This document shows positions 3,702 through 61,271 of a stretch of DNA of 64,000 nucleotides, piece after piece. Below the pieces are notes generated by a model. That model had not been told where the DNA came from and searched no databases. It worked only from the letters and a program-made list of their open reading frames with translations. The first letter of the stretch is position 1. Each line of letters starts with the position of its first letter. Where the stretch lies: positions 249,001 to 313,000 of the forward strand of contig JAXGGA010000036.1 in assembly GCA_038373865.1 (NCBI GenBank), written 5' to 3'. The DNA comes from Uloborus plumipes (taxonomy: Eukaryota; Arthropoda; Arachnida; Araneae; Uloboridae). A program made the translations under genes and the position numbers.

Positions 3702-3898
3702 TAGGTTGATTTTGATGAAATTTGGCACAAAATTAATTTTAAGCTCTGAAATGTGCATCTCAAATCCATTTTCTCTAAAGTCCAATTTTGTAATTTTTCC
3801 TCTTTAGTTTTAATTGTCCTTTTTATTTAAAATTGCTGTATTGGGATGGAATATTTCTGACGCATTTTTTTATTTTTAATGTTATCTGAAAGCCTGTG

Positions 3899-4428
<530 letters not shown>

Positions 4429-17701: not shown

Positions 17702-17960
17702 TTAAAGAGTTGTGGTAGTGAGGCATCGAATTTCATTGCATCGAAGCAAATGCACAGATTCTCTATCTCCTATATACATAAATCCCAGTTTAACTGATCG
17801 GTAAATATATCCTTAGCTTTCTTGTTTAGTTGTCTTATTTAAGCTGAAAAGACAGCGCCAAGTTCCAGCTTTCTTCGTCCCACTTTTTCAAGCAGAGCTT
17901 ACTTAAATGTTGCGATCAATAAATCACTGAGTGGAAGAGCGTGTAATTTTGCTCCCTGAA
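17702..17960. other. Unassigned sequence before the tandem array
   Basis: I recognised nothing here. Confidence 0.5.
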
Positions 17961-19377
17961 TTGATAATTTGAAGGAGTGCTAATTTAAGAATTGCCTGCA
18001 TTTGAGTGGGAAGAAAGGAATTATTTCAGGAAGCTGCTTCAATTCATTTTCCAATTCATTTCCCGAGCAATGAGCGCAAACGATTTATAGGCAAATAAGT
18101 CCTGTAATGTCGCGGCGATCTTTTGGAAAATGACTGCTGCAGCGATTTCGTTCAATTAGAAATATCTTTTAAATTGATTCAATAAATGAAACGCAGTTCC
18201 AAAGTTTAATTACCTTTTAAAGACTTTGGTTTTATGTCTTGATTTTATTTCTGATTTTTGTAATTTCAACGTGCGTGCAGCAACAGGTGCTGTTATGAGA
18301 TGTTATGAGACTGCGAGCACTGAAATGAATTATTGAAACTCGCTGAGTAGGGGAATGTGAGGCAAGTAAAGTAGTTAAGAAAAATTGATAATTTGAAGGA
18401 GTGTTAATTTAAGAATTGCCTGCATTTGAGTGGGAAGAAAGGAATTATTTCATGAAGCTGCTTCAATTAATTTTCCAATTCATTTCCCGAGCAATGAGCG
18501 CAAACGATTTACAGGCAAATAAGTCCTGTAATGTCGCGGCGATCTTTTGGAAAATGACGGCTGCAGCGATTTCGTTCAATTAGAAATATCGTTCAAATTG
18601 ATTCAATAAATGAAATGCAGTTCCAAAGTTTAATTACTATTTTGAAATAACTTTTTAAGGACGTTGGTTTTATGTCTTGATTTTATTTCTGATTTTCGTA
18701 ACTTCAACGTACGTACAAGTGCTGTTTTGGGACTAGGAGCACTGAAATGAATTCTTGAAAACTCTCGGATTAGGCGAATGTGAATCAAGTAAAATAGTTA
18801 AGAAAAATTGATAATTTGAAGGAGTGCTAATTTAAGAATTGCCTGCATTTGAGTGGGAAGAAAGGAATTATTTCAGGAGCTGCTTCAATTCCTTTTTACA
18901 ATTCATTTCCGAAGCAATGAGTGCAAACGATTTACAGGCAAATAAGTTCTGTAATGTCGCGGCGATCTTTTGGAAAATGACTGCTGCAGCGATAGCGTTC
19001 AATTAGAAATATTGTTTAAATTGATTCAATAAATGAAATGCAGTTCCAAAGTTTAATTGCTATTTTGAAATGACTTTTTAAGGACTTTGGTTTTATGTCT
19101 TGATTTTTATTTCTGATTTTGGTAACTTCAACGTACGTGCAGCAACAGATGCTGCTTTAAGACTGCGAGCACTGAAATGAATTCTTGAAAACTCGCAGAG
19201 TAGAGGAATGTGAGGCGAACTATTTTCAAAGTGAACAGATAGGAAATTCATATTGAAAATTGCTGAAAATCAGAAATTTAAAATTCTTTACCAAACAATG
19301 AACGCAAACAGGGGCGGATGGGGCCGGCGGGCAGCCGGGCATTTTCCCGGTGGGCCGCCTGTGTTACGGCCGGTCGG

Positions 19378-22455: not shown

Positions 22456-22457
22456 TA

Positions 22458-23962
22458 CACTGCGATGCAAAAGTTGAGACAAAATGCAAATATATGAATA
22501 AAAAGAAAACTATTCAGCGAAATGCTTTCAAAATTTTTACTGCAGTAACACAATATGGTCCCAAATACGTGTCTGGAGTTTTTAAAAATATAACTGAAAC
22601 GAAAATCGGAAATTACAAAAGACTTTCTTTTTGCTGTTTCAAAAGTTTAGACCAAAGTCAGATTTTATGCAAATATCTCTTAAAATGCGACTGGGGGAGG
22701 AAAGGCGGGACATTATTTATCGAATATAAAGTGCAGAGATTCCTTAATGAATAATCAAAATCTCTGTAGTTCTCGTGTAAAGAAGATGAGAAAGTTTGGA
22801 AGTCAAAATTTGAAAATGAACCTACTTTATTAATTTTTTGTCTTTTAAATCGGTTCTAGTATGGTAGTACATTGTTTTTTACTTCGTGGAGTTCAAATTT
22901 AGACATGCGTATGGATAAAAAAGGCTAAGAAAAAATATATTTCTTAAGGATGAAGGGATTGAAAAAACTGCTCGAACTGACGATTCGCCCCTCAATTCTG
23001 TAAAACTTCAACTTAGGTCAAAAACAGCACGTGACAGCATAAGTAGATGAACAACTGAATCGGAATGCATTAAAAGAAAAAAAGAGACAGAGTGTCCCTA
23101 ATAAGCCAGATTTTAATGGAAAAAGCAGCATACGTATCATCGTGACTAAAAAATGAATGTTACTTTCTCTGATAAAAAATATTAAAATTGGTATGGCCTA
23201 GATGGATTATAATTCTATTAGCGGGACTTGAGAAATATCCAATGATGATATGCTGTGCTGCTTTTACCATTAAAATCTGGCTTATTTGAGACACTCTGTC
23301 CGAAAAGGCTCAAACACAATTCTTTCTTTTTTTATGCATCCCGATTCAATTGCTCATCTACTTATGCTGTTACGTGCTGTTTTTGACCCAAGTTGAAGTT
23401 TCGGGGGATTAAGGGGCGAATCGTCAGTTCGAGCCGTTTTTTCAATTCCTACATCCTTAAGAAATATAATTTTTCTTGGCCTTTTTTATCGATACGCATG
23501 TCTAAATTTGCTCTCCACGAAGTAAAAAAACAATGTACTACCATACTAGAGTCGATTTAAAAGACAAAAAAAAAAAAAATTAAAAGTAGGTTCATTTTCA
23601 AATTTCGGCTTCCAAACTTTCTCATCTTCTTTACACGAGAACTACAGAGCTTTTGGGATTTTGATTATTCATTCAACAATATCTGCACTTTATATTCGAA
23701 TAATAAAGTCCCGCCTTTCCTCCACCAATCACATATTAAGAGATATTTGCATAAAACCTGACTTTTGTCTAAACTTTTGAAACAGCAAAAAAAAAAAAAG
23801 TCTTGTAACTTCCGATTTTCGTTTCGATTATATTTTTAAAAACTCCAGACACGTATTTGTGACCATATTGTGTACCTGCAGTAGAAATTTGAAAACATTT
23901 CGCTGAATAGTTTTCTTTTCATTCATAAATTTGCATGTTGTCTAAACTTTTGCAGCGGAGTG
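22458..23962. mobile_element. 1.5-kb foldback (long terminal inverted repeat) element, TA-flanked
   Basis: The arms 22458-about 23144 and about 23240-23962 are inverse copies of each other along their whole length (roughly 690-720 bp), with a loop of about 95 bp. The ends are CACTGCGATGCAAAAGTT and, read inward from the right, CACTCCGCTGCAAAAGTT, with TA at 22456-22457 and 23963-23964. TA plus CACT...GCAAAAGTT points to a Tc1/mariner-related non-autonomous element. The 86-codon frame at 22494-22754 lies in one arm, is not preserved in the other and has no domain. A transcript across it would form a very long hairpin. Confidence 0.92.
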
Positions 23963-23964
23963 TA

Positions 23965-26900
23965 TAATATTTCATTACATATACAGAAAGTATAAAACTT
24001 TACCGGGAAAGGGTAGCACTGTGGGTTTTCTTGTTCTATTCTAAATTCAAGAGTATTAAAACATTTGAAGCGGCACAAAATTATCCTGCTTGACTATAAT
24101 TACTTTTATCGTCATAGTATTAAAAACAATCAACCTATATTTATTTTTTTTTTCGAATATTAACACACAAATGCTCGTAAAAGTACTAACATCATATAAA
24201 GCAATACTACTATCCACAAAGTATTTATCTTATAACACATTCCACTTTTGTCACAATAGCTTGATAATTTTAGTTCTTGTTTATAAAAGTAGTTTTGATT
24301 GCTTGCTGGAGTCTTAAGATATTTCCTAGTTAATAGAATATTCTAGTAAAATCTTATATTTCAATGCGAATAACGCAACAGATATAAACTTCGCGAATGG
24401 TTAATATTAAGTTAAAATAAAAAAGTTTTAAAAAATGTATTAGTATGTATTCCTACGCAATCGTTCAGAAAGAAGCAATGATATAATTTGAAGATATAGT
24501 GAGATGATTAAAAGTATTTTGAATAAATATATGGGCAGATGTCATATAAGAATTTTTTATAATATTATTTTACTCTCATTCAATGCTTTAAAAAGAACAT
24601 TTATTGAATTGCACTTATTTTTCATACGCAATCTTTAACAAGAAAGGCTTAAAGTTTTCTTAAAGTTTAAACCCCACATCAAATCTAAATTTTGCTTTTA
24701 ATCTAGCTTCTAATTACACTAACGTCAGAAAATTCATTTGAGCTGAAAAATCTATTTAAAAGCTCAAATTTAAATGATTAATGATGTAGTTGAGCCTCTA
24801 AAACTCGCTGCAGCTGGATTCGAAATTTTTATACATTTCACTCAGCTAGATTAGCGCACCCAAAATAAGAACTTATCAACAATCTAACCATCCGGCGGTG
24901 TATCATAAACACGCCATGTCTTCGAAATTAAATCTCTAATATCATTTCAGTACGTCAATTTAGCGAAAATAAATGAGCGTTAGGGCTTACTTCAATTAAG
25001 TACCACCAAAAACGTAAGAGTTACTGTGTCCTAAAGGCAAGCTTATTTGTTAATGAGTGAGAAGGTTTGACACGCCAGGAAATAATATAAATCGAAATTC
25101 TCCTGGCTAGAGCGATGCGAGTAACTTGTTTTTGGTTTCAAGCTTGAGTTGTTGGTGCAATTAAGAAATCTCCCTAGGGTAAGTTTCGGATTTTCATGAA
25201 TTCTTCACCAGACGCTAGAAAAATTCATACTTTTACTCGTAGAAGCAAAGTAGCTTTCAAGTTTTCTCATTTAATGTTTTTTCGTTAGCCTTCTTATTTG
25301 GAAAATAAAAATGTTTTCTGCTTTAAATGAGGGCATTTTGTGTCGTTTGGAATTTTATATGCTTGTGGCAATGGGTGATAAATATATTAACATCCGATGT
25401 ATCGATTTTCTGTTATATGACTCCCTAAAGTGGCAACAGTAAGTGGAGATGTTTTTGTGTATTCATAGTGACACTTTTTACTCTTGTAAATGACGATTTC
25501 AGCTTTTAATCGTGTTTTAAACTTGATTTATATTAAACTTACTTCTTGGTCTCATAATAAAATATCTTTTTGTTTTTTATTATTTTCAACCGAATGCATT
25601 TGTGACAAGATGGCTTGATGAAGTGAAGAAAAAAAAAATCCTTGCAACAATTTGTTTATTCGTAGGACTTATTACTAGCTTAAGAACATGAAATTGTTAT
25701 TTTTATGTTCTTTTTTTTTTCTTCAGAAATACATTTTTACTGGAGCATTGAAATATAATTGTACAAACCATTTTTTTTTAAATAAGCATAATTTTAAATA
25801 AATTAAAATGTGCACATAATATTAGTATGTCTAAATTAAAATTTAAAATGTTAATAACAAGAACTTTGTCCTTTATATATTTAAAAAAAATTACATGACA
25901 ATACGAGTATCAATTTTTGAGAAATGCTTATATTATCATCTTCAGAGGTAACTTTTTCCTGACTGAAATAGTTGTCAAGTGCTATTACATAGTTAAAATA
26001 TTGCCAGATAGGTGGTGCAAAAACAGAGAAAATATTTTATCATTTTCATTCTTCCCGTTACTTCATTTTGCCTCACGTTCCATCACTCGTGATCAGATTT
26101 TTTTTCACCAGGTTTTTTTTCAAAGTGTAAAATACTTCGGGGTATTTTAAGGAGCCACAAAATTCAGTTTTGGAGGCATGAACTATACAAAGCAGTGAAC
26201 ACCATAGCAATGGAGATCAATTCCCTAAAGAAACTGATTTTCTAGGGAAACAAATGGATGACGGCTGTCAAAAAATTGATGTATATTTTTTATGAGCTTA
26301 CTGTTTAGATTATATAAGATTTTGAAAGAAAAATAACCCCTTCAAATGTCATGTTTTAAAAGGTCCAATTGTGTACTTTGCTTCAATTACGTTGTCCAGT
26401 GCAAAAATTTATTGAAAATATAAAGCATGGAAATGCGCTTGACTAAATTTTCAAGGTATGTTTCTGATTTTCAATGCTCTAAGGCTCGGAATATTTTTGT
26501 ATTTTTCTATTAAAATCACACATCCTTAACATGCCTAATCTGTGCAGCTAGTTTCAAAGTGTTCATAAATAAATTCATATTTAATCATTGACAAAATCAT
26601 GGAGGTTAATTAACCGGGAAACACCGTTCAATCTTGCTCAGAGCCCAAAATTGTTTAGCATTCAAATCCAGCGATGAATAATTAATATTTAGCTTGCCCT
26701 GACTGAAAACTTGAGTAAATCTAACATAAGCACGGTTAAAACTTATTATTAAACGCTACAAGAAACTCTATCTTCAGTGTAAATAAATCTCAAGTCTATC
26801 ACGATCAATGATAGCAAATGCAATCGGAAGAATATTTTAGCGTAAATCGTGTAATTCACGTTGCACATGTTGCACGATCACACGATCTCTGACAATCTCA

Positions 26901-27113
26901 TAAAGAAATTTCGTGGAGCTATGCCAGAAGAGTGTGGTAACCAAGGAAGAAGAAAATTGCCGTTTTCAGAGCCTAGTCTAATACAACGATCAGGAAGGTC
27001 GTTATTAAATAAATAATGAACATCAATTGTTTAGCATTCCCAAACTTGTTTAGCCAATCAGATAAGAGGGGGGGGGGGCATCTTGTTGGAAAATTAACGA
27101 CCGTTGAACGTGA
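23965..27113. other. 3.1 kb of mostly unique AT-rich sequence
   Basis: I searched this stretch for coding-like or repeated structure and found nothing I can defend. The frames at 24090-24317 and 25917-26150 are AT-biased and featureless. A G-run lies at about 27067-27079. Confidence 0.5.
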
Positions 27114-27227
27114 CATCCTAGGTAGCACAAATAACCTTTAAACGTTTTATAAACGTTTTTAAGCGGTTGTCACAACGTTAATAACCATTTTACAACGTTT
27201 AAAAAACGAAGTGTGCTACTTGGGATG
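27114..27227. mobile_element. Short MITE with CCTAGGTAGCACA / CCCAAGTAGCACA ends
   Basis: ACATCCTAGGTAGCACA at the left is matched in inverse by TGTGCTACTTGGGATGT at the right (14 of 17 positions). The roughly 80-bp interior repeats AACGTTT on both strands. The end words are those of the 391-bp element at 3311-3701, so both probably belong to one TA-specific group, although a TA duplication cannot be read here. Confidence 0.65.
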
Positions 27228-27582
27228 TTACTGCAAGTGAAACGAGTTAGACTTTGGACTTGATACCTGCCGTATCACTAAAGGCTCATATATTGAGCAT
27301 TAGTGTATCGTGTACAGTTTCTTTCGCCAGTGAAGTCAACGTTGTTGCTGTATTGGTAACAAGTTTGTAACAAATTTTGACACACCACGTATGACCCATA
27401 ACGGTGCTTAAAAAGTTAAAGAAACACATAAAAAGGTCTGAAACACGTACAATTACTGCTTAAATACCCAAGCTTGCCTCCAATTTACGAGTTGTACCGA
27501 ACAAGTGCTGTGCAAAATTCCCTTTAGCTACTGGTTTGCACTTCATTGAAATGACATCTGCCTTCAGCTCGGCTATTGTCTA
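27228..27582. other. Unassigned sequence upstream of the ribozyme motif
   Basis: This stretch is moderately GC-richer than its surroundings. If the hammerhead belongs to a retrozyme or Penelope-like element, its other parts may lie here, but I recognised no second hammerhead, primer-binding site or polypurine tract. Confidence 0.4.
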
Positions 27583-27628
27583 TTTCAGACTGACGAGTCC
27601 AAATGAGGACGAAATTGCAGTCTCTGGA
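27583..27628 (+). ncRNA. Hammerhead ribozyme, type I with minimal stem III
   Basis: The full core is present. CTGACGA lies at 27590-27596 (CUGANGA with C at the free position 7). Stem II is GTCC (27597-27600) and GGAC (27607-27610), closing a 6-base AAATGA loop. GAAA is at 27611-27614. The cleavage triplet is GTC at 27620-27622, cutting after 27622. Stem I pairs TTCAGA (27584-27589) with TCTGGA (27623-27628), six pairs including one G-U. Stem III is only ATT/AGT around a 2-base GC loop, but ATTGCAGT is self-complementary allowing G-U, so a dimer would have an 8-bp stem III. Very short stem III is known in newt satellite 2, Penelope-like elements and retrozymes. A 62-codon frame over it is incidental. 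The single copy may be a relic. Confidence 0.75.
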
Positions 27629-27639
27629 TGGCGTAACTG

Positions 27640-28488
27640 GGCTATACATTGCATACAGTTCTGTCTTATCCCTGGCTTTGTGGGCAGTAAATTACTGCTT
27701 ACATACAAAAGTGTTCTAGAATAAACTTTTTCTAATTCTTCTCAAATATTGTCTCTTTTCCTGCACTGGATAATTATATTTTATTCTTTATTTTTCGAAC
27801 TGAAAATTGATTCTAAAACGTTATTAAACTTAGAAGTAAAAAAAAAAGAAGATTCAAACTCTTTCCTTTTATGAAAATAAAGAAAAATTTTGAATAATTC
27901 TTTCGCAAAACGGAAACTATTTCTGATGAACTTTCTAAGGAAATGGATCAAATCCAATTTTCTTCTTCAGTTTCAGCATTCAACTTTCGTTCATTTAATT
28001 TCTAGAAGCGCATTTTTAAAGTCGTGGGAAGAGAAATTATATTGGAAATTTTCTTAAAGGTTCTTATTTTTATCTTACATTTCTCGTAAACATCAAACTA
28101 TATACTGCTCAATATTGATTTAGGAATACTGAACACTAAGGTTGTTTTATTTTTAGGTTATTCTCCAACTATAATGCATTGAAGAAAATATCAATTTAAT
28201 TTTTCAAACTATATCAACTTTGACGTGTTTTTCATTTTATGGAAATGAGATGAACGCTTTCATCCTCAAAACTTAATGCTCCTGAAAATTCGTGGTGAAA
28301 TATTAATATACTTGAGGCAAAATCCATTTCCTAGTTTTCGTCAATAAAGTCCCTTTCATTTTCCCCTCAAATAAATTCATGAAATCTTCAAAGTCAGGTG
28401 ATATTGAGAGAAATTTTTTTATACCGAAATTTTTGCAGTATGGATGACAAGATCCTAGAAACGTAAAGAGCATGTAATAAATGTCTCG
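27640..28488. other. AT-rich unassigned sequence
   Basis: I see no gene or element boundary here. Confidence 0.5.
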
Positions 28489-28877
28489 TTTTTAGGAGTT
28501 TCCTTTCACCTATGTATTTGTTTTTCAACTCCTGACGCAACAAGGAAGGGAGTTATAAGGTTGACGTATGTATGTATTTGTCTGTGGCACCGTACAGCCT
28601 AAACGGATGGACCTATTTTTTAGGAGTTTCCTTTCACCTATGTATTTGTTTTTCAACTCCTGACGCAACAAGGAAGGGAGTTATAAGGTTGACGTATGTA
28701 TGTATTTGTCTGTGGCACCGTACAGCCTAAACGGATGGACCTATTTTTTAGGAGTTTCCTTTCACCTATGTATTTGTTTTTCAACTCCTGACGCAACAAG
28801 GAAGGGAGTTATAAGGTTGACGTATCTGTGTATTTGTCTGTGGCACCGTACATCCTAAACGGATGGACCTATTTTGA
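28489..28877. repeat. 128-bp unit repeated three times
   Basis: The units begin at the TTTTTAGGAGTTTCC word near 28489, 28617 and 28745. The first two are almost identical by eye and the third has only a few changes, so the expansion is recent. Each unit holds TTTCAACTCCTGACGCAAC, GGAGTTATAAGGTTGACGTA, TGGCACCGTA and CTAAACGGATGGACC. The last unit runs straight into the rest of the dispersed repeat at 28491-29392. Confidence 0.95.
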
Positions 28878-29392
28878 ATTTTTTGTCTGTTTAAAGGTGA
28901 AGTGATCGAGAGTGATCTTAGCTAGATCGCGTCTTCGGATGACATTAATTTACAAAGATATTAATTACAAACCTTTAAAATGTTTTTAGCGATTTTTGAA
29001 GTGAAAATATACTGGCAAATTTAAAACAATAGTACCAAAAGAAAGAAAAGAAATTTCTGCATCTGATAAGATGTGTTTGGAACTTCCATCTAAAATAGAA
29101 CTCGAATTATAACGTTTTTTTAGCAGAGGCGGCTAAAGCTTAAATCTACAGAATTGTCATTGTTTGATGACAAGGAAAGAAAAATCAATGATTTAAAATG
29201 TTTATCTGTTGACAATTTCTATTTGTTAACAATTAAAATACTTGTAATTGATTTTTACAAAAGAATTGTCAACTTCCCATCTTAGTTAAGCTTTTGAGAC
29301 CAGCATAATTTTACTAGTAAGGATTTTTTTACTTTTCGTGTTTACCATATCCTCTCGAAAACAATTAAATATATTTAGATTTAAAATGCTTT
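28491..29392 (+). repeat. Second copy of the block at 11727-12420
   Basis: After the triplication the sequence keeps the same order as the minus strand of 12420-11727: AGCTAGATCGCGTC, CATTAATTTAC, CCTTTAAAATG, GATAAGATGTGTTTGGAACTTCC, TTGACAATTTCTATTTGTTAAC, TTACTAGTAAGGA, TCGTGTTTACCATATCCTC, AATATATTTA. There are no terminal inverted repeats or target duplication that I can see, so its class is open. It is not part of a hAT here, showing that the block moves or moved independently. Confidence 0.8.
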
Positions 29393-29451
29393 ATGACCAG
29401 AGAAGTTTGTTTTAATATGAGCTAGAGCCGCTCGACATTTTTAAGAAACTA

Positions 29452-29913
29452 CAGTCGAACTCGTTTATAACGAGCTCGGATATAATAAGAACTCGGATTT
29501 AACGAGGGAAATGAGAATATTTGGTTGGATCAATGTTAAGTCTATGGAACAGAATTCGTTTATAACGAGCATGACCCGGTTTCAACGAGCAATTTCTTCT
29601 GTCTCGAAGTCTTTTTTCTCTCATCTTTCTAGTCTTATTCCTGTCTTATCTTTTCTTTTTTTTCCCTGCGGTTCAATACTTTTGTCTAAAAAATTCCACC
29701 AGCACTCCAGTGTCATTAAATAAAGAACAGTATAAAATTAAGCTAATTTCTGTAATTAAAGTAAGTATTAGTTAAATTATAAGTGAACTCAATTATTTGA
29801 CCCCATTCCTTCTGGTTGTACGCCGGCCGTAAGGACCCGTTTATTACGAGCACTCGGATTTAACGACCAACATGTTACGGTCCCTTCGTGCTCGTTATAA
29901 GCGAGTTCGACTG
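29452..29913. mobile_element. Tigger/pogo-like MITE, CAGTCGAACTCG ends, TA duplication
   Basis: This is a 462-bp element with ends CAGTCGAACTCGTTTATAAC and, read inward from the right, CAGTCGAACTCGCTTATAAC, flanked by TA at 29450-29451 and 29914-29915. Further ACGAGC..CGGATTTAACGA words lie under both ends. CAGTCGA-type ends with a TA target fit the Tigger/pogo group of Tc1/mariner. The 70-codon frame at 29511-29723 is not recognisable and no transposase remains. Confidence 0.88.
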
Positions 29914-29915
29914 TA

Positions 29916-30285
29916 CTACCAAAAACCAAAGGGAGTGAACACTATTATGCGTCAGAAAAGGATCCATTGTCGTTTAAAGTTGTTTTCCAATCAATGTACC
30001 CTATTTCTTTGGTATTAGTTGAAGTACATTTGTAATTAATAGATGAGTTCTGTAAATCAGTATTGCTAATTCACTTTATTTTCATTTTTATTACGAGTAA
30101 AATATAACGCGTTTAATTCTTTACAAAAAATTCCCCCCTTTCTGGCCAACAATGGCGTACCAATTTTGGAGCAACATGCTACCAATCTTTTTAGGGTAAG
30201 TACTCTGTCCTTCAATATGCATTGTAAACATAGCACAGTTTTAAGCAATAGTGTATTTAATAAAGTGTAACAGTAATTAGGGTGA
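29916..30285. other. Unassigned sequence
   Basis: A 60-codon minus frame at 30066-30248 includes a GC-richer stretch (30130-30200) whose peptide looks less random than its neighbours, but I cannot assign it to any family. Confidence 0.35.
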
Positions 30286-30287
30286 TA

Positions 30288-31226
30288 TGGGCGATTCTCT
30301 GTAAACTCGTAATTGGCTGTCCGGACCGAGTATCTTTCAAATTTTAAAGTGTAATAAAGTAATTATCGCTCGTAATACAAGTAAAGCATTAACACTTTGT
30401 GGGCAATTGTATTTGGAGCAGTAATAATTTGATTTTTTTTCTATAAATTATCTAAGCACCAAAAACACAGTCCCCTGGTTGTCCCAATCCAATAGTTGAA
30501 TACTTAAAGGCAATATTTCAAAAAACCTATTGACACTACATAGATTTGGCAATTAATACCTAAAAATAGAATAATGCAACTTTATTTCTTATGAAATAAG
30601 ATCTAATTACGTATTTCTAAAACTTAAAATTGTCATGTAAATTTTGTCAGGAGTTTTTTCAAACAGTCCTCTGCCACAAATTCAAAGCTCCAATAGAAAA
30701 TATCTGTAACTCTTGTAAATGTTTTTTGGCATGGAGTTTTAAGTAATCAGTGTGAATTTGCTGAAATTGCTGAGAACCGTGATGAAACGATACTTCGTTT
30801 AGTTTCAGAATCACATTTGTGATGAAAGTATGCATCTTGGTCGTTGCAAAAACAGTCCTCTGGGAAGTGATTTCATTAATATCAATTAGTTTAATTATGA
30901 AACATATTAGTTATTATGTCCATGATTTGTGCCTGAATTTGTAGGTAGTCTCGTAACTAATTATGTTCCAATAATTTTTCAGATATTATGCTACAAAGTG
31001 CAAATACATAATTCCCTGGCCCAATCCCCTGCCTAGTTATACTAGGCAGGGGACCTCCCCCCTATCATAATTTATCAGAAAAACACAAACTTCAATTGGC
31101 CTTCTTTCGAACCAAAGTAATAGATTCATTTTCTGAGCAATATTATTATGATTATATGAACATTTCAAAAAACCATGCCCGGACAGAATCCGGGTGAAAA
31201 ATGACGAGTTTACAGAGAATCGCACA
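30288..31226. mobile_element. TA-flanked DNA element with GCGATTCTCTGTAAACTCG ends
   Basis: This is a 939-bp element. The left end is TGGGCGATTCTCTGTAAACT and the right end, read inward, TGTGCGATTCTCTGTAAACT; TA lies at 30286-30287 and 31227-31228. Subterminal CCGGAC/GTCCGG words follow on both sides. Inside, ACAGTCC.CTG words recur at about 30467, 30663 and 30851. A perfect 11-bp hairpin is at 31026-31052. The 103-codon minus frame at 31037-31348 crosses the right end and is not a gene. It is a non-autonomous element of a TA-specific superfamily. Confidence 0.8.
31026..31052. repeat. Perfect hairpin, 11-bp arms, 5-base loop
   Basis: CCCCTGCCTAG and CTAGGCAGGGG flank a TTATA loop. It lies within the TA element at 30288-31226 and is G+C-rich in an AT-rich context, so it stands out. 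No T-run follows that would suggest a terminator. Confidence 0.9.
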
Positions 31227-31228
31227 TA

Positions 31229-31546
31229 TAACAATAAGATACCGTATAGGGAAAAGACTCTTCGTTCACAAACGCATAGAAGTCTGCTCGTATTTATAAA
31301 TATTTGTTTCATTATCATAAAATGCTTTTGGTAAAAAATTAAGTTCACTTAAGCAGAAAGTAACATTCGTCATTATTACAACAAAACTTGAAAGGCACGA
31401 AAAGAACATTACAAATGTCATTTTACATACACTTTTAATTTATTCGAGTAAATTCAGATGATATTGTTTGGGAATTACAAAGAAACTCCAAGAGGTTAGA
31501 ATTCGTCACCTTCACGTCAAACAACCTTAACAAAAATACTGAATTA
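31229..31546. other. AT-rich unassigned sequence
   Basis: I see nothing here that I can support. Confidence 0.5.
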
Positions 31547-31548
31547 TA

Positions 31549-31936
31549 AACTAAAAATGAATGTTGTTTTTACAGTATAATACAGCTAATTTTGTAGTAA
31601 TAAACAGTAAAAATTGCTAATTTTACAGTAATAAACTGTATATTTCCAATTTTACAGTAACAAACTATATTTGCTAATTTTAGTTTATTATCGTGCATAT
31701 TGCAGTTTTAAACTAGAACCTCGGCTGTCAATATTGTACTGTTGTTTTTACAGCTTAATACAGCTAACTTTACGATAGTAAACAAAAATTGGGAATAAAC
31801 TGGAAAATTCTGCTTTACAGTAATAAACTGTAAAATATCTAATTTTGCACTTTATTACTGTGCATTTTACAGAGTTTTAAACTGTAACCTCGCTGCCAAC
31901 ATTATACTGTAAAGACAACACTTTATTTTTTGCAGT
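31549..31936 (+). mobile_element. CACTG/ACTGTAAAA MITE, copy E
   Basis: The right end is intact (TTTATTTTTTGCAGTG). The left end has lost its CACTG (AACTAAAAATGAATG). TA flanks both sides (31547-31548 and 31937-31938). Two CCTCGGCTG/CCTCGCTGCC markers show the same orientation as copy C. Confidence 0.88.
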
Positions 31937-31938
31937 GT

Positions 31939-34900
31939 AGAGTTTTATGTGCTCGAAATCTTTAGTGCTATTTGCTATTAGATACTAAATGTAACGGACT
32001 GAATGTGGCATGTTATGAAAAGATTAGCGAGAAAAAAGTTTTAAGTAGTTAATTCTGATAAATATGTTGTTCACTTGATACTTAATATACTTTTATAAAA
32101 GTACCTTTCATTTATGTCTTAAGCAACTTGAATATTTATTCCTATCTGAACTGTTGGCTGGAGTTGTTTCAGGCTTTGGGAGGGGTGTGTTCCGCTCTGT
32201 CTGTTTTGTTTGTCATTTGGGAGTTAGCCCATCATTGTTTAGCTACCAGACATTTGCTTACGCCCAAAAGCTTCATTTGTTTAAATATTTATTTAAAGTA
32301 TGCTGTCACAATGAAATCAATTGGCATTGAGCATTTTTGAGGAAATCGTTGTTGAATATATCAACAAGTTAATGAACATTTAAGTGCAATTTCATTTCAA
32401 AAAAATCATAACATGGTTAAAATCGGAAGAACTTCAACAGTTTTGACTAACGTTTTTTGGGACTTAAAATAAAAAAAGTTTATCTGATCGTTTTCATTTT
32501 GGAAATGTATAGGAAAAAATCGTCAAAAAAAAAAAAAAAAAAACTTTGAGACCTTAATATTAAAAAATAAATAAATAAAATTGAAATAAAGAAACTAGCT
32601 ACTTATTTACTGAGAGTGAGAAGGGGGGGGGGAGGGTCATTCATTGGTCGGTTTTCATTGCATAATATGTTTTTTCGATTTAACGGACAGCAGAAATGCA
32701 ATTAAATTAAAATTTTTACCCTTCTCACTTACAAGAAAACTATTTCAACTCTCAGTGAGGTCGCGTACAGATGGTAATAATAACAGGTAATGTCAATACA
32801 AAATACAAAGAAAATGAATTTTAAGTGTTCATTTGAATTGGTTATAATTGTGCGTAATGTAATGCATGAACAATGTCGATGAATGGTTTTTTTTTTTTTT
32901 TAAATACAGGGAAAATAGTTGTAATTTTTCCATTTTCTGGAATTTATTCTTTGTGAAAAAATTATATTTCATTCGAACTATATTTTAACTAAAAGTGACG
33001 TTCTGTTCTTAAATATAGAGAAAGTTAAAACGGTCCTTCGTCCGTTTAGACACATAGCAATGGAGAAAAAGTTTTTGAAAAAAGGTTATGTTTTAATAGA
33101 TATTTAGGATTATTAATTTCAAAATAAATATATTTCGTTTGGTAATTAGAGTGAAAAAGGTGGCTACTAGTATTACAAAGGTGTGCCTGTGAATACAATA
33201 GTTACTACCGGTTACTGGAGACTTAAGAATTTTTATAGTTCTGCCCTTTATTGCATAGTCCATTTGAGTAATAAATTCAATGTTGTTAAAATTTATCGTT
33301 TTACCATTTAATATTGCATCATTGATGTCATTTACGTTTCTGCAGAAAAGTAAAATTAATTTCTTTCAAATTATTTAGATCATTTCGAAGTAAAAATAAT
33401 TACTAATTATTTTTAAAAAAGAAATTGTAAAACATTTTTACTGCAATTTTGATTAGTTTAATATCGATAAATGAAATACTCTATCATTGTAATCAAAATA
33501 AAGTATGTTTTCATGAAATTTAAACTTAAAATAATAAAAATAAAAAAACCTATCTTATAACATTGCTTATTTGCTAAGAAAATATAACTGTTCGATTCAA
33601 AACAAATGCACAGATGTTTGAATCATACAAAGCCATTAATTCGATTGGGAGTGTTTTGAAAGTAGAAAAAAAGAATGATTTGTTTAATCCAGCTTATGAG
33701 TAAAATCCGCTTCTCAGATCATCGTAGGAGTTTGACATTAGTTCAATTCTATTTTTGGCTCTTATACATTATCTATTGTTACGTCTAAGTAATTCAAACT
33801 AAAGCCTTAAGCTTCTCAACGCCCACTCTCTTGCACAAAAGTCCAAAGGGATGGTGTTATCAATTTTCAGATCAATTGTATGGATGAATAAGATGATTTG
33901 AAAACGGGACAATATAAAGCAACGGGGGTAAAAGCAATGAGTAAAATTAATCGTTTTTAAAAACAATATTGGGTACAATGCAGATATTCAGCTTTATAAT
34001 ATTTTACATAAATGAATCACACTTGAAATTAAAAATCAGAAATTTAAAAAAAATGTTACCTTCAGAAAACTTATTTGTATAATTCAACGTAACTTAAGAT
34101 GAGTGATTTAAATTCAAATGTTTTCCTTATGAATAATTTGATTGAAACTAGCTAAGCGTTACTGAATTGATTGAAAGGAAGACTGATAAATGTCATGACT
34201 TTCACGTACCACATTTTTATATAAATTATAATATGCCTTTTTGTGAGAAAATGTTAATAAGCTAAATTCAGTGTTTTATGTGGACAGTTTACAGCGTTTG
34301 TGACATTGTACCGTTTTATTGTATCAAATTAATCAAATGGCTTATTATATTGTTAAGAGAGGGTACAGATTTAAAAGTACAAGTTGAAAATATTCCCTCT
34401 CAATAATCATATGCAAAAAGTGCAAACAAAAGACTTATTTATTTTTGATAGACTATGATTAAGAGTTTAAGCGATGACCTTATAAAATACGACACATTTT
34501 ATTGTAAAAAACGAATTTTTAAATTCAAAGTAGTTTTTGACAAAGCAGAGTTTGCTAATTAAACTAGAGTTTAACTTATCTATTAATCATAAATGTGGCG
34601 AGAACAAAATAATGAAAAAAAATTCTGAAATGCGACTATAGTACTATTTTGCAAAAAAGCTAAACCCAATTTTTTCTTGCTCATCTGAAAAGGCAATAAA
34701 AACTAAAAAGGTAATGAAAGTGCAAAAAATTCTAAAATGGATTAATGCCCCAAAAGTTTAAAAAGGACTGAATTAACTCAAAGCTCAATCAATAGTGATA
34801 CTAAAGTTGCACCATCTGTGTCGTATTTTTATCTTCTAAAAACAACATCAGAATCTATAGATGCTCTAAATAATATTTAAAACAAAATAACCATTTTCAA

Positions 34901-35081: not shown

Positions 35082-35361
35082 CACTGCAAAATATGAGCTG
35101 TTGTTTTTACAGTATTATACTGGCAGCAGAGGTTCCAGTTTGAAACTGGAAAATGCCCGGTAATAAACTGAAAAAATAGCAATTTTACAGTTTAGTACTG
35201 TAAAAGTAGCAGTTTTACAGTTTATTACGGTAAAATTAGCAACTTTACAGTTTAGTACTGTAAAAGCAGTTTTACAGCTATTACGGTAAAATTAGCAATT
35301 TTTACCGTTTATTACTACAAAATTACCTGTGTTATACTGTAAAAACATCATTCATTTTAGC
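35082..35361 (-). mobile_element. CACTG/ACTGTAAAA MITE, copy F (right end lost)
   Basis: It begins CACTGCAAAATATGAGCTG and carries the GGCAGCAGAGGTTCCAG marker on the plus strand. It stops at an A-run where TGCAGTG should be. The ACTGTAAAAGTAGC modules repeat four times. Confidence 0.85.
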
Positions 35362-60866: not shown

Positions 60867-61271
60867 TCTGTAAAAAAGCAGTTTTTTTTACAGTATAATA
60901 CTGGCAGCAGAGGTTACAGTTTAAACCTGTAAAAGCACAGTAATAAACTGTAAAACTAGCTATTTTGCAGTTTATTACTGTAAAACTAGCAATTTTACAG
61001 TTTATTACTGTAAAATTAGCAATTTTACAGTTTATTACTGTAAAATTAGCAATTTTACGATAAAATTAGCTGTATTATACTGTAATAACAACAGTATAAT
61101 TCTGGCAGCAGAGGTTCCAGTTTAAGACTGTAAAATGCACAGTAATTCGTTGTGAAATTAGCAATTGTATAATTTATTACTGTAAACTAGCAATTCTACA
61201 GTTCATTACTGTAAAAATACTGTAAAATTAGCTGTCTTATACTGTAAAATCAACATATATTTTTTGCAGTG
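60867..61271 (-). mobile_element. CACTG/ACTGTAAAA MITE, copy J
   Basis: The right end TTTTTTGCAGTG is intact; the left end is reduced to CTGTAAAAAAGCAG. It has the most regular internal array: ATTTTACAGTTTATTACTGT plus AAAATTAGCA repeated three times in a row near 60985-61050. Two GGCAGCAGAGGTT markers are on the plus strand. Confidence 0.88.

Follow-up and report, generated by a model that had tools for sequence, protein, structure and literature searches.

A type I hammerhead ribozyme core on the + strand of the window (the whole 64-kb stretch of DNA that was analysed) probably belongs to a single, decaying monomer, about 222-239 bp long, of a non-LTR retrozyme of animal type. The RNA from which it derives would have cut itself and been made circular; we give this reading a probability of about two in three. 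The core itself, a complete type I pattern at 27584-27628, can be read directly from the sequence and at that level is confirmed as real. Its features are collected in Table 1, together with those of the putative element around it. An earlier note on this DNA had listed CTGACGA, a 4-bp stem II, GAAA, a cleavage site and a 6-bp stem I in that order, and all are present as listed. Its interpretation as a retrozyme-like type I monomer relic, possibly acting as a dimer, fits the data, whereas the Penelope terminal-repeat origin that it offered as an option has become less likely and the exapted ribozyme is unsupported.

Table 1. Features of the hammerhead core and of the putative retrozyme monomer around it
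Feature	Position	Strand	Basis or remark
Direct repeat, left copy, AATTACTGCTTAAATAC	27451-27467		Possible target-site duplication or unit overlap
Direct repeat, right copy, AATTACTGCTTACATAC	27690-27706		16/17 identical to left copy
Putative retrozyme monomer body, 222 bp, or 239 bp including one copy of the repeat	27468-27689	+	Inferred from direct repeat
Possible outer stem I extension, 7 bp, two wobbles (27566-27572 with 27637-27643)	27566-27643	+	Folding prediction
Type I hammerhead ribozyme core	27584-27628	+	31.1 bits against the whole of Rfam RF00163 (model positions 1-45)
Stem I, TTCAGA with TCTGGA	27584-27589 with 27623-27628	+	6 bp, of which one is a T-G wobble
Catalytic box CUGACGA (C3 to A9)	27590-27596	+	Sequence; fits core rule described in PMC3088659
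Stem II, 4 bp, GUCC (27597-27600) and GGAC (27607-27610), loop AAAUGA	27597-27610	+	Sequence; Rfam consensus stem agrees
GAAA box (G12, A13, A14, A15.1)	27611-27614	+	Sequence
Stem III, AUUGCAGU, 2 bp (A-U, U-G wobble) with tetraloop UGCA	27614-27621	+	Sequence
C17, predicted self-cleavage site (3' of C27622)	27622	+	Position in hammerhead model

The bases of the core agree with the hammerhead rule as described in PMC3088659 (C3 U4 G5 A6 N7 G8 A9 and G12 A13 A14 A15 U16 H17), and the core-adjacent pairs 10.1-11.1 (G27597-C27610), 1.1-2.1 (U27623-A27589) and 15.1-16.1 (A27614-U27621) are all formed, in line with the first two acceptance rules given in that source; none of the stems holds a mispair. 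T27583 lies opposite T27629, so that stem I begins at 27584 and the span of 27583-27628 first assigned to the motif holds for all but its first base. Stem III had been drawn as 3 bp with a 2-base loop. Since two bases are too few for a hairpin loop, we replace this layout with two pairs, A27614-U27621 and the wobble U27615-G27620, under the palindromic tetraloop UGCA (27616-27619), the UC of the predicted cleavage site being 27621-27622. The earlier remark that ATTGCAGT is self-complementary proves right, with 8 bp found of which two are G-U, and stem III would accordingly pair with its like over 8 bp in a dimer. Loop II is AAAUGA, and the stem I side is without supported structure; the outer stem I extension was set aside as added evidence, since shuffled flanks pair equally well in 433 of 2000 cases.

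When the sequence was compared with the Rfam families by cmscan, the Hammerhead_1 model was matched over its full length, with E = 1.1e-5 in 700 bases and E = 0.001 in the whole window, each multiplied by the 4227 families (a single-family E of about 2.4e-7 after division by that number), and the hammerhead had the lowest E among the 17 rows of the whole-window scan. The earlier note had proposed such a covariance search, and the family match that it looked for is present and significant by E-value, although the score of 31.1 bits falls below the Rfam gathering cut-off of 34 bits, so that a gathering-level scan lists nothing. In the cmscan alignment the consensus is matched in the core and in stem II, and stems I and III deviate.

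The motif had been described as having no other recognisable retroelement part beside it, a description that missed a direct repeat of 17 bases with the core between its copies, which lie 239 bp apart and are identical at 19 of 22 positions when extended. The repeat may be a target-site duplication or an overlap of units, and it suggests, but does not prove, the bounds of about 222-239 bp for the element. Dinucleotide-shuffled flanks of three sizes equal its score in 1, 1 and 2 per 1000; an equal or better repeat pair is found at 157 of 1500 random centres of the window and, after tandem and simple repeats are masked, at 164 of 3160 real window centres. The window is thus rich in repeats as good as this one, and the direct repeat is a candidate and not proof. 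The putative body has 45 % GC against 32 % (31.7 %) in the window, and 2.4 % of 222-bp windows reach 45 %. We do not take the base composition to prove both ends of the element, since GC drops only at the right edge (20-30 % from 27720 on), with values of 30-42 % leftwards to 27200.

According to PMC7229834, the classical type I hammerheads of animals reside mostly in retrozymes and are reported from molluscs to arthropods, so the locus would belong to an already known kind. That source describes animal retrozymes as 170-400 nt long, with less than 50 % GC and, when one is present, a target-site duplication of more than 4 bp; the putative unit, its GC content and the possible duplication would all lie within these ranges. 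The metazoan non-LTR retrozymes it describes from coral, mussel and axolotl also share the type I core and the two pairs under a helix III tetraloop, an arrangement that this source reports for Amex2 of the axolotl and compares with the hammerheads of invertebrates. Coding capacity is a further likeness, in that none was found here: the region holding the element (22501-32502) has no Pfam match in six frames. Unlike the locus, with its U-G pair in stem III and its one copy in 64 kb, those elements are described as multicopy and usually tandem.

Other hammerhead families resemble the locus in part. Nearly all of the repeat-type hammerheads shown in PMC3088659 have a palindromic stem-loop III, and those of the mosquito Aedes aegypti are, by their description, like the present one in being of type I with such a stem-loop and unlike it in lying within multicopy interspersed repeats; the one Ae. 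aegypti hammerhead whose assay is described there did not cleave and may need a dimer. The hammerheads of newt and salamander satellites, which cut as dimers (PMC6155905, PMC7229834), share with it a weak palindromic stem III capable of pairing between copies, and PMC7229834 describes the weaker amphibian hammerheads as needing dimers. As described, they differ in occupying abundant repeats of about 330-350 bp and in having one stem III pair, whereas the locus has two pairs and no tandem copy.

Under the retrozyme reading, self-cleavage of the source RNA after C27622 would give unit-length RNA, which a host enzyme similar to tRNA ligase would close into a circle. The circle would then be reverse-transcribed and inserted through the machinery of another retroelement, for which Penelope-like elements are the proposed candidates; the absence of a retroelement protein domain from 2501-62502 in six-frame Pfam scans is expected for such a non-autonomous element. 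Because stem III has only two pairs, A-U and the U-G wobble, below its palindromic loop, a single copy would be expected to cut poorly, and a tandem dimer sharing the 8-bp stem III would probably cut better. A second copy is absent beside the locus, which is therefore probably weak or silent now. ViennaRNA predictions agree in part with dimer action: with 91-nt units in tandem the dimeric double hammerhead is more stable (-48.0) than two single hammerheads (-35.2), as it is with 239-nt units (-124.1 and -121.5), yet both tandems have better non-dimer folds (-55.1 and -152.1 respectively). Folded as a circle, the putative unit gives z-scores of -1.0 (27468-27689), -2.1 (27451-27689) and -3.2 (27468-27706), so that the predicted circle is not always unusually structured and depends on the bounds chosen.

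Against the retrozyme reading, the retrozymes of animals mostly occur in many copies and in tandem, and one copy was found in the window. The single copy reported in the earlier note is upheld by both blastn and motif searches, which identify this as the sole hammerhead in the 64 kb: even with one mismatch allowed in the core, no second hammerhead is present elsewhere in the window, and blastn of 27440-27720 against the window returned, at E < 0.2, only the segment itself and the terminal repeat. The wider segment 26000-28488 gave matches within a foldback at 27110-27231, from 26005-26075 to 62024-61953 (72 bp, outside the element), and short ones with E-values of 0.017-0.049. Further counterpoints are the Rfam score under the cut-off, the repeat controls, the GC edge on the right only, a circle fold that is not always unusual, a preferred fold other than the hammerhead and tandem folds better than the dimeric one. 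The strongest is that retrozymes are as a rule tandem, whereas lone dispersed motifs have been described for the minimal hammerheads of Penelope-like elements (PMC7761336). The core could instead lie in what is left of a pseudo-terminal repeat from a retroelement of the Penelope-like or Terminon type. Such hammerheads have a type I core, may act as dimers and often occur as scattered lone motifs in non-coding DNA (PMC6155905, PMC7761336), and the weak stem III at 27614-27621 would suit them. We nevertheless consider this origin unlikely, since the published examples in these two sources are minimal, usually without helix III or its variable bases, and tied to reverse-transcriptase elements, whereas the locus has a helix III of two pairs with a UGCA tetraloop, and no Pfam reverse transcriptase or endonuclease was found in 2501-62502 (a lone truncated repeat would have none either).

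A chance or long-dead match, that is, a string in neutral DNA that resembles a hammerhead but never was a ribozyme or has lost its activity, seems somewhat less probable again. Bare CTGANGA..GAAA strings at hammerhead distance are at chance level in the window (4 matches, 3.71 expected), and a perfect core with at least 4 bp in stem II, at least 2 in stem III and at least 6 in stem I occurs at one site only on the two strands. A descriptor of the same type (perfect core, stems of at least 4, 2 and 6 bp) matches twice, both strands searched, in 3922 Markov-simulated 64-kb windows, or about 5e-4 per window; a generic hammerhead-like string is thus not rare at gigabase scale, and some would be expected by chance in a large genome. 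The segment 27584-27628 stands apart from such strings in how well it fits the family model, which takes the sequence of stem II and the layout of helix III into account as well and which gives the whole-window E even after multiplication by all families. The score under the gathering cut-off favours a chance match, as does the predicted minimum-energy structure. The segment 27565-27650 folds into something other than a hammerhead, with -27.0 kcal/mol and z -2.74 (equalled by 4 of 200 shuffles), and in the 91 nt of 27560-27650 the hammerhead lies 9.4 kcal/mol above the preferred fold. It is 9.1 kcal/mol worse in the bare 45-nt core and 5.0 worse in the Rfam consensus core, which indicates that ViennaRNA underrates hammerheads, although 27584-27628 still looks worse than the consensus.

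It is very unlikely that the core is a single-copy ribozyme exapted for host use, for example in an intron or a long non-coding RNA. The intact core, its single copy in the window and the co-option of hammerheads into amniote introns described in PMC6155905 and PMC3088659 speak for such a role, and the weak stem III, the predicted misfolding and the absence of any coding exon recognised by Pfam in 2501-62502 speak against it, so that this option of the earlier note is not supported here. Least probable of all is a host-kept, trans-acting switch in which the 8-base palindromic stem III would allow cleavage only when two transcripts meet, and would so read RNA dose or encounter.

Lone hammerheads are remnants that allow the spread of retrozymes to be traced. 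To these the locus adds a candidate in which a wobble weakens stem III and a target-site duplication may be present; it would be well suited to a comparison of monomer and dimer cleavage, and it leaves the understanding of the class unchanged. Were there no further copy in the host genome, the persistence of a single intact core would pose a testable question.

Relatives were also sought elsewhere. An 18-base exact stretch had no match in viral contigs, and the core with a UGCA-type stem III was found in none of the viral contigs and in none of the prokaryotic genome contigs. A looser hammerhead pattern was present in three viral contigs, none of them with an Rfam hammerhead at gathering score. 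A 26-base probe taken from the 128-bp tandem repeat of the window likewise had no match.

The window contains two ATG, GTG or TTG frames of at least 120 aa and many simple repeats, and we infer that it is non-coding animal DNA. The Pfam scans covered 2501-62502, and their only matches are weak and taken as chance: DUF1934 (E 0.017, about 32591-32830, + strand), which is under its curated cut-off, and Zip (E 0.0032 and 0.02, about 3891-4052, - strand), which is under its cut-offs and lies within a TG repeat.

Several other repeats are evident in the window. A large inverted repeat at 22456-23964 is a foldback-type element of about 1.5 kb, its arms (22456-23085 and 23321-23964) being 88 % identical over 649 bp, and the hairpin at 27110-27231, some 220 bp upstream of the direct repeat's left copy, is a MITE-like foldback with 70 % self-inverted identity over 125 bp. 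Tandem arrays include three copies of a 128-bp unit, 98 % alike, at 28489-28875, and 2.9 copies of a 423-bp unit, with 89 % matches, at 17959-19213. Short arrays of a dispersed repeat about 30 bp long and in part palindromic, ACTGTAAAACTAGCAATTTTACAGTTTATT with its variants, occur at many places from 2515 to 61215 (for example at 35167-35325 and 60947-61058). The exact 15-base direct repeat AATTGTTTAGCATTC, at 26649-26663 and 27025-27039, surrounds 361 bp that are perhaps another insertion with a target-site duplication. Lastly, a segment at 29451-29520 that begins ACAGTCGAACTCGTTTATAACGAG seems to resemble the ends of pogo/Tigger-type DNA transposons.
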